From assembly GCF_018332655.1 (NCBI RefSeq), contig NZ_BOQL01000078.1, positions 1 to 64,000 on the forward strand: DNA of 64,000 nucleotides, in the 5' to 3' direction. This DNA comes from Actinoplanes auranticolor. GTDB taxonomy: Bacteria > Actinomycetota > Actinomycetes > Mycobacteriales > Micromonosporaceae. Made by a program: the position numbers and the translations under genes. Of this stretch, positions 30,531 to 33,809 are shown piece by piece (position 1 is the stretch's first letter; each line of letters begins with the position of its first letter). The notes below the pieces were generated by a model that saw nothing but the letters and a program-made list of their open reading frames with translations, was not told the DNA's origin and did no database searches.

Positions 30531-31237
30531 CCGCGCCGGAGAACGACGGCACGGTGGAGCGCCGCACGCCGGACTACCGCAGTGTCGTACGGAAGCTGAC
30601 CAACCTGGACAACGAGGCCGCCGCCCACCGGGCCGAGGCGCGGGCCTGGCACGACAGCCGCGCGATCGAGGCCGACAACGCTGTCCGGGCGGCCGACCAG
30701 CGGATCCGCGAGACCCAGGCGGCGTGGCGGGCGGCCCAGCGCGAGCGGGAGGAGATCGACGCGCGCTCGGCGGTGCTGTGGGCCGAGTTCGCGCACAAGG
30801 CGGGCCGGGTGGCCGAGCGGTTCGGCGCGCACGCCCCGCAGCCGACCGTGCCCCACCAGCGGGACCGCGACGCCGAGGACTACCTGCAGGAGGCCGCGGC
30901 CACCGCGGCCTGGGCGCCGGCGCCGCGCAAGCCCTCCAGCGGGGCCTCACTGCTGTACGTCGTGCTGGGCGCGCTGGGCGGCGCGGTCGGGGTGGCGGCG
31001 TGGTCGACGTTGCGGTGGGCGGGCCGGGAGGCCGGGGGCGACTGGGCGGCCGGGCTGCCGGTGGTGGCGCTGGTCGTCGCGCTGCTGGGGCCGATCCTCG
31101 CGGTGATCACCGCGAAGCGGGTCGCTGACCGGCGCACGGTGCCGTTGGACACGTCGGCGGTGGCGACCGTGCTGATCGCCAGCTTGATCGCCGCCGGGTT
31201 GGTGCTGGCCCTGGCCCGGGGCAGCGCCGCAGCCTGA
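30527..31237 (+). CDS. Coiled-coil membrane protein of the FtsK-like operon
   Basis: 236 residues. Residues 15-100 form a highly charged coiled coil (LTNLDNEAAAHRAEARAWHDSRAIEADNAVRAADQRIRETQAAWRAAQREREEIDARS). A Pro-rich linker follows, then three hydrophobic helices: LLYVVLGALGGAVGVAAW, LPVVALVVALLGPILAVIT and VATVLIASLIAAGLVLALA. It starts with GTGA overlapping the ATPase stop. The layout suggests a membrane anchor that could dock the soluble ATPase through coiled-coil pairing, which is inferred from gene order and the ATPase coiled-coil N-terminus. No family is recognised. Confidence 0.8.
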   Translation: MTAPENDGTVERRTPDYRSVVRKLTNLDNEAAAHRAEARAWHDSRAIEADNAVRAADQRIRETQAAWRAAQREREEIDARSAVLWAEFAHKAGRVAERFGAHAPQPTVPHQRDRDAEDYLQEAAATAAWAPAPRKPSSGASLLYVVLGALGGAVGVAAWSTLRWAGREAGGDWAAGLPVVALVVALLGPILAVITAKRVADRRTVPLDTSAVATVLIASLIAAGLVLALARGSAAA

Positions 31238-31240
31238 GCC

Positions 31241-31329
31241 CGCGGAAGCCGGGCCTCTGCGCGGAAGCCGGACCTCTGCGCGGAAGCCGGGCCTGCGCGG
31301 AAGCCGGGCCTGCGCGGAGGCGGGCCTGG
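31241..31329. repeat. Tandem 17-19 bp repeat, 4-5 units
   Basis: Units of CGCGGAAGCCGGGCCT(CT)G begin at 31241, 31260, 31279 and 31296, with a degenerate fifth at 31313. The first two units are 19 bp, the next two 17 bp, differing by a CT dinucleotide. They lie between the operon end and a terminator. Unit length and absence of spacers exclude CRISPR. Confidence 0.8.
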
Positions 31330-31352
31330 CGAGGGCGGGAACTGGCCGGGTG

Positions 31353-31380
31353 CCCGGGCGCCGGTAGGGCGGCGCCCGGG
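31353..31380. terminator. Hairpin terminator between convergent genes
   Basis: CCCGGGCGCC (31353-31362) and GGCGCCCGGG (31371-31380) form a perfect 10-bp stem with an 8-nt loop. It lies just beyond the stop of the JmjC gene (minus strand) and downstream of the FtsK-like operon. Confidence 0.75.
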
Positions 31381-31383
31381 ACG

Positions 31384-32637
31384 TCAGGCGGTCGCCGGGA
31401 CGGTCAACGCTTCGCGGAGGAGGCGGCGGGCCAGGACCAGGCGGTCGTGGTCGTCGTCCAGCTCCGGCAGGTCGCCGACGCGGTGGGCGGTGCCGTCCAG
31501 CGCGGTGCGCACCGCCGCCGCGCAGTAGGCCGGGAAGCGCAGGGTGCGCCCGGTCATGCGGAGCACCACGTGCTCCGGGCCGTCCTCGTGCAGCTGCCAG
31601 CGCAGCCCCTCGCGGACCGTGATGCGGTCGTCCGGGCCGAGGCGCTCGGCGAACTCCAGCTGGGCCAGCGGGCGGACCGGGGCCGGGCGCTTGGCCGGCC
31701 AGGCCCGGTCGCGCAGCCGGGCCGCCACGGTGGCCGGGTCGGCGGTGAGCAGCCAGTCGCGCAGGGCTTCGACCGTCGCGGTGAGCTCCGGTGCGACGGC
31801 CTGCGGGTCGGCGACGTCCATCGCGTACGGCAGGGTGGCGCGCAGCCGCTGGTCCTCCGCCGCGAGCTGGAGCAGCTCCTCGACCAGGGCGTACCGGGTC
31901 AGCGCGCGGACGCCGAAGGTCAGGTGCAGGGAGCGTTCGCCCTGGGCCTGGGCCGAGTGCAGCCAGCCGCGGGGCAGGTAGAGGGCGTCGCCGGGGGCGA
32001 GCACGACGTCCAGCGTCGCCGGGCCGTCGGCCACCGCGCCGACCTCGTCCGCGCGGCCGCCCCAGGCCTGGCGTTCGAGCGGCTCGGGCAGGACGGGCTC
32101 GTGGATGCGCCAGCGCTTGGTGCCGTCCACCTGCAGCACGAACACGTCGTGGGTGTCGTAGTGGGTGGCGAAGCCCTTGTTGCCGGCCGGCGTCAGGTAG
32201 GCGTTGACCTGCAGCGGCTGCCGCAGCTCCTCGCCCAGCCGGCGGGCGTAGTCGATCAGCGGCGGCCAGATCCGGTGCAGGCCCTGCAGGACGAGGGTGG
32301 CGCCGCCGGCGTACAGGTGCATGATCTTGTCGTCGATCACCTGGTCGCTCACCTCGGCGCCGGCCCCGCCGCCGCCGGTGAAGGACGAGGCGGGCAGCAC
32401 CTTGCCCTGGTCGGCGACCCGCAGGAACGGGGTCCGCAGGCCGCGCTCGCTGAGCAGCTCGTCGACCGCCGCCGGGGAGAGCAGGTCGGTGAAGCCGTCC
32501 GGGCCGGCCAGCTCGTCGGCCCGGGTGAGCAGCGGCTGGCGCCCCCAGTAGGCCTCGGCGAACTTCGCCGGGTCGAGGGCGATCGCCCGCGCCAGTGCCG
32601 GGCGGTCCTCGGTGCCGCCCGGCGCAGGGTTCGTCAT
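31384..32637 (-). CDS. JmjC/cupin-4 2-oxoglutarate oxygenase (YcfD/NO66-like)
   Basis: A 417-residue Fe(II)/2-oxoglutarate dioxygenase of the family that includes ribosomal oxygenases YcfD (arginine hydroxylase) and human MINA53/NO66 (histidine hydroxylases). The iron facial triad is complete: His159 and Asp161 in FATHYDTHDVFVLQ and His227 in LYLPRGWLHSAQ. KRWRIHEP follows the first pair, and LQVNAYLTPAGNKGF precedes it. The C-terminal third is the winged-helix/dimer region of this family. ATG 32637 has GAGG about 10 nt upstream. The gene starts 10 bp after a gene for a repetitive Gly/Ala/Asp/His protein, which is an attractive substrate candidate. Confidence 0.92.
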   Translation of the reverse strand: MTNPAPGGTEDRPALARAIALDPAKFAEAYWGRQPLLTRADELAGPDGFTDLLSPAAVDELLSERGLRTPFLRVADQGKVLPASSFTGGGGAGAEVSDQVIDDKIMHLYAGGATLVLQGLHRIWPPLIDYARRLGEELRQPLQVNAYLTPAGNKGFATHYDTHDVFVLQVDGTKRWRIHEPVLPEPLERQAWGGRADEVGAVADGPATLDVVLAPGDALYLPRGWLHSAQAQGERSLHLTFGVRALTRYALVEELLQLAAEDQRLRATLPYAMDVADPQAVAPELTATVEALRDWLLTADPATVAARLRDRAWPAKRPAPVRPLAQLEFAERLGPDDRITVREGLRWQLHEDGPEHVVLRMTGRTLRFPAYCAAAVRTALDGTAHRVGDLPELDDDHDRLVLARRLLREALTVPATA

Positions 32638-32647
32638 GGCGTCAGCC

Positions 32648-32965
32648 TCAGAGCGCGCTGCCGTCGGCGCCACCGTCGTGGCCGCCCGGGTTGGCGCCAC
32701 CGTCGGCCGGGCCCTCGCCCGCGCCGCCGTCCGCGCCGCCGTCGTGACCGGCCGGGTTCGCGCCGCCGTCCGCGGGGCCCTCGGCACCGGCGCCACCGTC
32801 GGCACCGCCGTCGTGACCGGCCGGGTTCGCGCCACCGTCGGCCGGGCCCTCGCCCGCGCCGCCGTCCGCGCCACCGTCGTGACCGTTGGCGTTGGCGCCG
32901 CCGTCGGCCACACCCTCGCCCGAAACGCCGCTGCCGCCGGTGATGTCGTCGTCGCTGAGTCGCAT
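32648..32965 (-). CDS. Gly/Ala/Asp/His repeat protein, RiPP-precursor-like
   Basis: 105 residues: a 16-residue leader MRLSDDDITGGSGVSG, then four repeats of 22 (one of 23) residues with consensus EGPADGGANPAGHDGGADGGAG. Every repeat keeps one His in GHDGG, one Asn in GAN and three or more Asp. Composition is almost only G, A, D, P, N, H, E, with no aromatic residue and no Cys or Lys, so it should be disordered and acidic. ATG 32963-32965 has AAGGAG 6 nt upstream, a strong translation signal. It lies 10 bp upstream of the JmjC oxygenase gene. It could be a peptide precursor or scaffold hydroxylated on His, Asn or Asp; this is inference. Confidence 0.75.
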   Translation of the reverse strand: MRLSDDDITGGSGVSGEGVADGGANANGHDGGADGGAGEGPADGGANPAGHDGGADGGAGAEGPADGGANPAGHDGGADGGAGEGPADGGANPGGHDGGADGSAL

Positions 32966-33068
32966 GGAAAGCTCCTTCGTGTCGCCCCGACGCTGGGGCA
33001 GGTGGAGATCTGCTCGTACCCTGCGTGGATCACGTCTAACCGGGCCCGGACGTGGGTAACACCACCGC

Positions 33069-33809
33069 GTGCTGGTGATGGGGACGTCCGGCTGGCAGTA
33101 CAAGGACTGGCGCGGTGAGGACCGGCTGTACCCGCCGAAGCTGCCGCAGCGGCTCTGGCTGGAGAAGTACGCCGAGTCCTTCGACACCGTCGAGGTCAAC
33201 AACGCCTTCTACCGGCTGCCGGAGCGCGACACCTTCGCCCAGTGGCGGGCGCGCACCCCGGACGACTTCGTGTTCGCGGTGAAGATGAGCCGCTACCTGA
33301 CCCACATCAAGCGGTTGCGGGAGCCCGCCGAGCCGGTGGCCCGGTTCCTCGGGCGGGCCGAGGCGCTCGGTGACAAGCTCGGCCCGGTGCTGCTGCAGCT
33401 CCCGCCCACGCTCAAGATCGATGTGGCGGCGCTCGACGAGACGCTGGGGCTGTTCCCCCGGAGCGTCAAGGTCGCCGTCGAGCCGCGGCACGACTCGTGG
33501 TGGACCGACGAGGTCCGTGACCTGCTGTGCCGGCACAACGCGGCGCTGAGCTGGGCCGATCGTAAGGGCCGGCCGGTGACCCCGCTGTGGGTCACCGCGG
33601 ACTTCGGCTATCTGCGGATGCACGAGGGGCGGGCGCAGCCGTGGCCGCGCTACGGGCGTACCTCGCTGGCGACCTGGGTGGACCGGCTGCCCGGCGTACC
33701 CACCTATGTCTTCTTCAACAACGACCCCGGCGGCGCGGCAGTCATCGACGCCGCCGCGATGGCCGCGCAGGCCCGCCGCCGCGGGATCAAGGTCACCCGG
33801 ACGCCGTAG
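33069..33809 (+). CDS. DUF72 family TIM-barrel protein (first copy)
   Basis: 246 residues of the DUF72/YecE family: GTSGWQYKDWRGEDRLYPPKLPQRLWLEKYAESFDTVEVNNAFYRLPERDTFAQWRARTPDDFVFAVKMSRYLTHIKRLRE, LGPVLLQLPPTLK, VAVEPRHDSWW, YLRMHEGR and YVFFNNDPGGAAVID. The fold is a TIM barrel with a phosphate-binding-like groove; the reaction is unknown. GTG 33069 is the annotated start, with an alternative ATG 33078; neither has a good Shine-Dalgarno sequence. It is divergent from the repeat-protein gene and followed 9 bp later by the class IV aminotransferase gene. Confidence 0.88.
   Translation: MLVMGTSGWQYKDWRGEDRLYPPKLPQRLWLEKYAESFDTVEVNNAFYRLPERDTFAQWRARTPDDFVFAVKMSRYLTHIKRLREPAEPVARFLGRAEALGDKLGPVLLQLPPTLKIDVAALDETLGLFPRSVKVAVEPRHDSWWTDEVRDLLCRHNAALSWADRKGRPVTPLWVTADFGYLRMHEGRAQPWPRYGRTSLATWVDRLPGVPTYVFFNNDPGGAAVIDAAAMAAQARRRGIKVTRTP

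Follow-up and report, generated by a model that had tools for sequence, protein, structure and literature searches.

The window, the whole stretch of 64,000 nucleotides of Actinoplanes auranticolor DNA that was analysed, carries on its reverse strand a gene for a small repeat protein followed closely by a gene for a JmjC-type oxygenase. The features of the locus, with the basis of each assignment in brackets, are as follows:

32972-32977, reverse strand: AAGGAG, the Shine-Dalgarno sequence for the peptide, at a distance of 6 nt from the ATG (read in the sequence)
32648-32965, reverse strand: Asp-repeat small protein of 105 aa, proposed precursor or substrate (translation; homologues directly upstream of JmjC genes)
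32918-32965, reverse strand: leader, residues 1-16, MRLSDDDITGGSGVSG (start motif common to relatives)
32852-32917, reverse strand: repeat unit 1, EGVADGGANANGHDGGADGGAG (translation)
32783-32851, reverse strand: repeat unit 2, 23 residues (translation)
32717-32782, reverse strand: repeat unit 3 (translation)
32651-32716, reverse strand: repeat unit 4, ending ...DGGADGSAL (translation)
32646-32649, reverse strand: GAGG, the Shine-Dalgarno sequence for the oxygenase, which runs into the stop codon of the peptide gene (read in the sequence)
31384-32637, reverse strand: JmjC_2, NO66-like Fe(II)/2OG oxygenase of 417 aa (PF08007, 101.8 bits; NO66 by sequence and fold)
31897-32214, reverse strand: JmjC_2 match, residues 142-247, with the HxD...H triad and Lys174 (PF08007)
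32161-32163, 32155-32157 and 31957-31959, reverse strand: codons of the triad residues His159, Asp161 and His227 (JmjC_2 match)
31387-31686, reverse strand: C-terminal winged helix, residues 318-417, candidate RRE-like leader-binding domain (AlphaFold2, Foldseek)

The stop codon of the peptide gene (TGA, 32648-32650) is followed by 10 nt and then by the ATG of the oxygenase gene at 32637, and the GAGG of the latter overlaps this stop codon, so that translational coupling of the two genes is likely. The original prediction had described a 105-residue protein with a short leader and four 22-residue repeats, preceded by a strong Shine-Dalgarno sequence and lying 10 bp upstream of an oxygenase with an intact iron triad; all of this was borne out, except that the second repeat is one residue longer than stated.

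The pair is isolated in the window, with a divergent DUF72 gene on its upstream side and, downstream, a convergent gene without a Pfam match plus a gene of the FtsK/SpoIIIE family. Among the best 80 of 348 loci of relatives, many of which are cut by contig ends, the DUF72 gene was kept in 52, the convergent gene in 68 and the FtsK-type gene in 67. A promoter and terminator scan of positions 31200-33200 yielded no candidate of either kind. A tandem GC-rich repeat of the CGCGGAAGCCGGGCCTG type, with about five copies, was observed at 31241-31328, in the gap between the end of the oxygenase gene and the convergent gene.

Repeat peptide and its conserved residues

The 16-residue leader of the window peptide is followed by four units of 22, 23, 22 and 22 residues, which are of the type EGPADGGANPAGHDGGADGGAG and contain one His each; Tandem Repeats Finder scored the array at 357 and 413. 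The peptide matched no Pfam and no NCBIfam model. The ORF is real and its repeat array is more than chance; among units of different genomes pN/pS was 0.187, a value that is only indicative, given that the unit pattern itself forces some residues.

A set of 271 repeat units, picked solely by their start EG[PVLT], was compared position by position. Asp occupied positions 5, 14 and 18 in 270 of the 271 units each, and the invariant feature of the units was an Asp followed by Gly or Ala, giving three candidate Asp residues per unit and twelve in the window peptide. Position 13, which is His in the window, was His in 159 units, Gln in 82 and Arg in 23, with Val and others in the rest. Whole cores devoid of His were found among those of the EGPADGG type (n = 13/88), the DG-dense cores (n = 26/35) and the further cores of the class sample (n = 9/38).

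Distant relatives carry cores of the (DGGA)n or DGDATDG type, which in the class sample reach 16 tandem DGGA units. The DG-dense cores contained 734 Asp against 27 Glu, and the residue X of the motif XGGA (n = 1067, class-sample and earlier cores together) was Asp 1041 times, followed by Gly (16), Ala (4), Val (3), Ser (2) and Glu (1). Mere negative charge would tolerate Glu, which is nearly absent, and so it is apparently the chemistry of Asp that counts.

Most of the peptides start with a short acidic leader, beginning with M-x-L-x-D-D-D-I/M in close relatives and resembling LTDEDIETV in distant ones. Outside Micromonosporaceae the leader motif is missing from many peptides; by the pattern used, it was not found in 24 of 95, some of which have a degenerate form of it. 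The DNA leader pattern CTNWSNGAYGARGAYATHSARACN, run against the 396 genomes of the phylum sample, gave two matches, one at an oxygenase locus (G370) and the other (G326, L163) at a place where neither an oxygenase match nor a small Asp-rich ORF was found; this pattern is too strict to detect orphan peptides, which may exist.

Oxygenase active site and C-terminal winged helix

The oxygenase matched PF08007 (JmjC_2) at 101.8 bits, against a cut-off of 22, and matched no NCBIfam model. In an alignment of 95 relatives, namely those with an upstream peptide, His159, Asp161, His227 and Lys174 were invariant in all 95, as were Arg73 and His163, with Arg68 and Arg122 nearly so. Lys174 aligns with the 2OG lysine of NO66. 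The closest solved structures by sequence were NO66 (4y4r, 2.8e-20) and then MINA53, Bacillus YxbC and YcfD; the model of the full protein (pLDDT 75.9, pTM 0.57) had NO66 as its first fold match (4e4h, 6.9e-27) and FIH as a distant one (2cgo, 2.6e-10). With its double-stranded beta-helix, HxD...H triad and 2OG lysine, the protein belongs to the JmjC_2 Fe(II)/2OG oxygenases, in the ribosomal-oxygenase branch.

Residues 318-417 were also modelled in isolation with AlphaFold2 (pLDDT 91.9, pTM 0.83). Foldseek placed NO66 at the top for this winged-helix model (TM 0.72, 6e-5), followed by MINA53 and YcfD, after which came weak matches to RiPP enzymes, the heterocyclase 4v1t (E 0.096, prob 0.96), ThcOx (5lq4, E 0.12, prob 0.89) and TigE (8vpo, E 0.57, prob 0.85), all three presumably through their RRE domains. 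The order of elements in the model, H-E-E-E-E-H-(short H)-H, has an extra helix and strand compared with the beta-beta-beta, alpha-alpha-alpha order of an RRE. By these weak Foldseek matches only, the winged helix of NO66/MINA53-type oxygenases and the RiPP recognition elements may be structurally related. Arg405 was found in 70/71 oxygenases whose peptide has the leader motif against 17/24 of those without it, and Glu409 in 68/71 against 9/24, both comparisons being only a confounded hint of leader binding, since they reflect largely one lineage.

Recurrence of the pair and the third gene

The closest oxygenase loci, taken as the best 80 of 348 confirmed relatives in named genomes and apparently all from Micromonosporaceae, carried the repeat peptide directly upstream in 78 cases, two of them with a peptide that is only partly visible (N run or contig end), and in the remaining two loci the contig extends no more than 72 nt upstream. 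Within the family of the window, an exact DNA match to EGPADGGA was present in 26 of 61 genomes, a pattern that misses variants. A phylum sample of 396 evenly drawn genomes contained 53 oxygenase matches (E <= 1e-30) in 52 genomes, and their distribution was patchy. In 47 of the 51 assessable loci, the window's own locus counted and two loci at contig ends set aside, the upstream region encodes a small Asp-repeat protein whose gene stops no more than about 60 nt short of the oxygenase gene; no Asp-repeat was seen upstream in the other four (L101, L127, L135 and L138). A class sample of 296 genomes gave 53 matches (E <= 1e-40) and 40 new loci, 39 of which were read, G534 being left out as it begins at contig base 18, and 38 of these 39 had the Asp-repeat upstream, the exception being L219. 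The original prediction had named a general lack of such a neighbour beside related oxygenases as the outcome that would speak against it; when checked in these three sets, the neighbour was found at nearly every locus.

As a control, genes were scored for a small ORF upstream of them with five or more D[GA]. This criterion was passed by 156 of 173 oxygenase loci, with six of the 17 misses not or only partly assessable, and by 7 of 819 other genes of at least 200 aa, drawn from the oxygenase loci themselves rather than from whole genomes; six of these seven were oxygenase genes missed by the filter, leaving about 1/813. A looser criterion alone was passed by 29/819 control genes.

Twenty neighbourhoods from distant families were compared, and in 11 of them a same-strand ORF followed the oxygenase gene; it encodes a Suc_Fer-like protein (PF06999), a copy of which gave no NCBIfam match. 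In a comparison of 11 Suc_Fer-like copies, seven Cys/His residues were invariant. The Suc_Fer-like gene is absent from the window's own genome, was the next gene in 40 of the 53 phylum-sample loci and lay downstream in 31 of the 39 class-sample loci. The family was above its cut-off in 45/52 oxygenase genomes versus 37/344 others (Fisher p 3.7e-29, kinship of the genomes not corrected for). Twenty Suc_Fer-like loci taken from genomes without an oxygenase match (n = 20/37) were inspected, and 19 were without oxygenase and peptide, while one had both. These loci and the upstream-ORF control indicate, therefore, that the peptide goes with the oxygenase, and the same pairing in many actinobacterial families suggests an undescribed peptide-oxygenase system.

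In a tree of 65 oxygenases (13 picked from the 80 close loci plus later ones, with L124 and L135 dropped for length), the EGPADGG-type and DG-dense peptides fell on different sides; the EGPADGG type required 2 changes and the DG-dense type 3, against about 20 and 22 with shuffled labels, and therefore the core type was inherited together with the enzyme. L127 and L138, both without a peptide, were long outside branches whose placement is unsure.

Several divergent upstream proteins were also observed. At L101 and L219, from one genus group, the upstream protein is Asp-rich without repeats and has a shared end, GPT[VI]EPGA. At L136, which was counted among the 47 phylum loci with a peptide, the leader ITDNDITS is kept and the core is a two-copy repeat, TEDDENLDAPGEHSQDTGDE, rich in Asp and Glu and without an Asp-Gly series. 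At L109 a longer divergent repeat, ADGTDQGV.GGTYGPRDA, stands behind a leader-like start.

Proposed function and alternative readings

We favour, with a probability of roughly 0.58, the reading that the pair is an actinobacterial RiPP-like system in which the JmjC enzyme hydroxylates the repeated Asp of a dedicated small-protein substrate. The unit would comprise two genes, or three in many other families, and the repeat protein would be the dedicated substrate of the oxygenase. Its acidic leader would probably dock on the C-terminal winged helix, as RiPP leaders do on recognition elements, and the repeated Asp-Gly and Asp-Ala would then be presented to the JmjC site, where Asp would be oxidised. 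The reaction would most likely be C-3 hydroxylation of Asp in the D-G and D-A motifs and would yield a cytosolic peptide with a high content of beta-hydroxyaspartate. The Suc_Fer-like protein, where present, may maintain the enzyme's iron in the reduced state or may act on the product.

Multi-core RiPPs combine a short leader, repeated cores and an adjacent modifying enzyme. The pair has a gene-encoded precursor with leader and cores, although the leader motif is missing in part of the relatives, and the modifying enzyme is encoded alongside in the three sets of loci; the gene pattern of leader, repeated cores and one modifying enzyme noticed in the original prediction is thus upheld by a recurrent pair. 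In contrast to multi-core RiPPs, the site on the chromosome is stable and there is no conserved protease or transporter. No conserved peptidase or exporter was found beside the pair in the compared neighbourhoods (such genes may lie elsewhere), so that a secretion or peptidase partner was rejected and a classical secreted RiPP is doubtful. As leader-removal and export genes were not found nearby, the system is not filed as a proven RiPP; together with the fixed chromosomal site, the lack of a conserved exporter or peptidase makes an intracellular role seem more likely than an antibiotic one.

Against Asp as the target stand the nearest characterised enzymes, NO66, MINA53 and YcfD, which modify His or Arg residues of ribosomal proteins (PMC4543633, PMC4295552), none of them Asp. 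The Asp-Gly-Ala repeats could also be kept for disorder or charge alone, though the scarcity of Glu argues against charge as the only reason. For Asp hydroxylation by a JmjC enzyme there is a precedent in FIH, whose targets include Asp residues of ankyrin repeats and, in repeat proteins generally, Asn and His as well as Asp (PMC4543633); for a JmjC hydroxylase at work in a RiPP pathway the precedent is BipG (PMC12707348). FIH and AspH resemble the proposed system as 2OG oxygenases that beta-hydroxylate Asp or Asn, but they are eukaryotic, their substrates are unrelated, and FIH is only a distant fold match.

NO66/RIOX1, MINA53/RIOX2 and YcfD share with the present enzyme the sequence, the fold, the triad, the Lys174 alignment and the C-terminal winged helix, and this common fold and domain plan would also suit an actinobacterial ribosomal oxygenase to which the Asp-repeat protein is bound as a regulator (an inhibitor, a decoy or a chaperone) instead of being its product. 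Mimicry of nucleic acid by acidic repeats is possible, and the conserved Arg68, Arg73 and Arg122 and the C-terminal Arg residues could bind acid. Those enzymes act on ribosomal proteins; here the gene is linked to one for an Asp-repeat small protein, and no ribosomal protein gene takes that place. A substrate is the better fit to repeats of near-identical units and to a core type that tracks the enzyme tree, and an inhibitor has no evident need for Asp over Glu. We consider this reading unlikely.

The Asp-rich cores, with median net charges of -13 and -19, might instead belong to an unmodified iron or calcium buffer, or to a chaperone, either of which would load or regulate the iron enzyme and also the Suc_Fer-like protein in loci that encode one. 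Its partners would be an Fe(II) enzyme and a protein with invariant Cys/His residues, from a family whose yeast member Apd1, of unknown function, is reported to hold a [2Fe-2S] cluster on two Cys and two His (PMC11126956). This explanation leaves the acidic leader and the winged helix unaccounted for, and a plain buffer needs no tightly linked oxygenase, which makes it rather improbable.

Hydroxylation of the His of each repeat, with the Asp-Gly as a mere scaffold, was the target suggested by the original prediction, which had stressed exactly one His per repeat in a fixed context. That description is accurate for every unit of the window peptide and does not extend to the relatives, and although NO66 and MINA53, the nearest relatives of known structure, hydroxylate His at C-3 (PMC4543633), position 13 is often another residue and whole cores lack His in relatives with an intact oxygenase triad, where Asp is conserved instead. 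His was therefore rejected as the target and this reading is very unlikely, so that the earlier interpretation stands for the recurrent precursor-enzyme pair and falls for the modified residue. The chance that the peptide ORF is an artefact of GC-rich repeats and yields no protein is negligible: spurious ORFs are common in high-GC DNA and abound in the ORF list of the window, but here amino acids are kept under synonymous change behind a good Shine-Dalgarno sequence, the ORF occupies the same position in many families, and only about 1 in 813 control genes has such an ORF upstream.

If the favoured Asp hydroxylation occurs, a further and speculative idea follows, because beta-hydroxyaspartate is a good Fe(III) ligand. 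The (D-G/A)n cores would be turned, across the actinobacteria, into a ribosomally encoded poly(beta-hydroxyaspartyl) peptide, a multidentate iron-binding polymer that would store or buffer iron inside the cell and whose redox partner in iron release would be the Suc_Fer-like [2Fe-2S] protein; we regard this extension as tentative and its truth as doubtful.

Oxidation of the repeats by this enzyme would provide a JmjC oxygenase of the NO66 branch with an Asp target and a dedicated, genetically linked substrate, making the specificity of that branch directly testable. It would define a common and so far unnamed actinobacterial peptide family, with no NCBIfam model for peptide or oxygenase, would suggest a kinship between the winged helix of ribosomal oxygenases and the RiPP recognition elements, and would place the Suc_Fer-like proteins, which are poorly understood, in a co-factor context.

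No account of an Asp-repeat peptide paired with a JmjC enzyme was found in the full text of open-access papers. The closest published accounts, as far as the available portions of the sources go, are the work on BipG and a single remark on JmjC-RRE proteins. BipG is a JmjC hydroxylase in a RiPP gene cluster, that of biphenomycin, where it hydroxylates ornithine as one of many tailoring enzymes (PMC12707348), whereas here a single oxygenase accompanies repeat cores and, apart from the Suc_Fer-like gene of other families, no further tailoring enzyme is conserved. A 2025 survey of RREs describes RRE-like domains fused to PF08007 JmjC domains in fish and algae and remarks that the bacterial homologues nearest to them occur in 'RiPP-like genomic contexts'; the available portion of that survey names no Asp-repeat peptide and no actinobacterial operon (PMC12710340).

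A plasmid search with the peptide gave no match, a result that carries no weight given BLAST's low-complexity filter. The corresponding search with the oxygenase returned 148 records, all below 60% identity, and three were looked at closely. On a Streptomyces clavuligerus plasmid (L184:3772-3918), a 36%-identical oxygenase lies behind a 48-aa protein that has a similar leader, SLEPDEIEVI, and ends in Asp-Pro-rich sequence (DNDPSDPP, DPDPFDP), which may represent a third type of core. No upstream peptide was seen at the second plasmid locus. The third, on a Mycetohabitans endofungorum plasmid (L186:1847-5197), carries a radical SAM gene, a 102-aa protein ending in SSDGCISNPGGPSC and a distant JmjC-type cupin, a row of genes that looks like another RiPP cluster with this oxygenase family.
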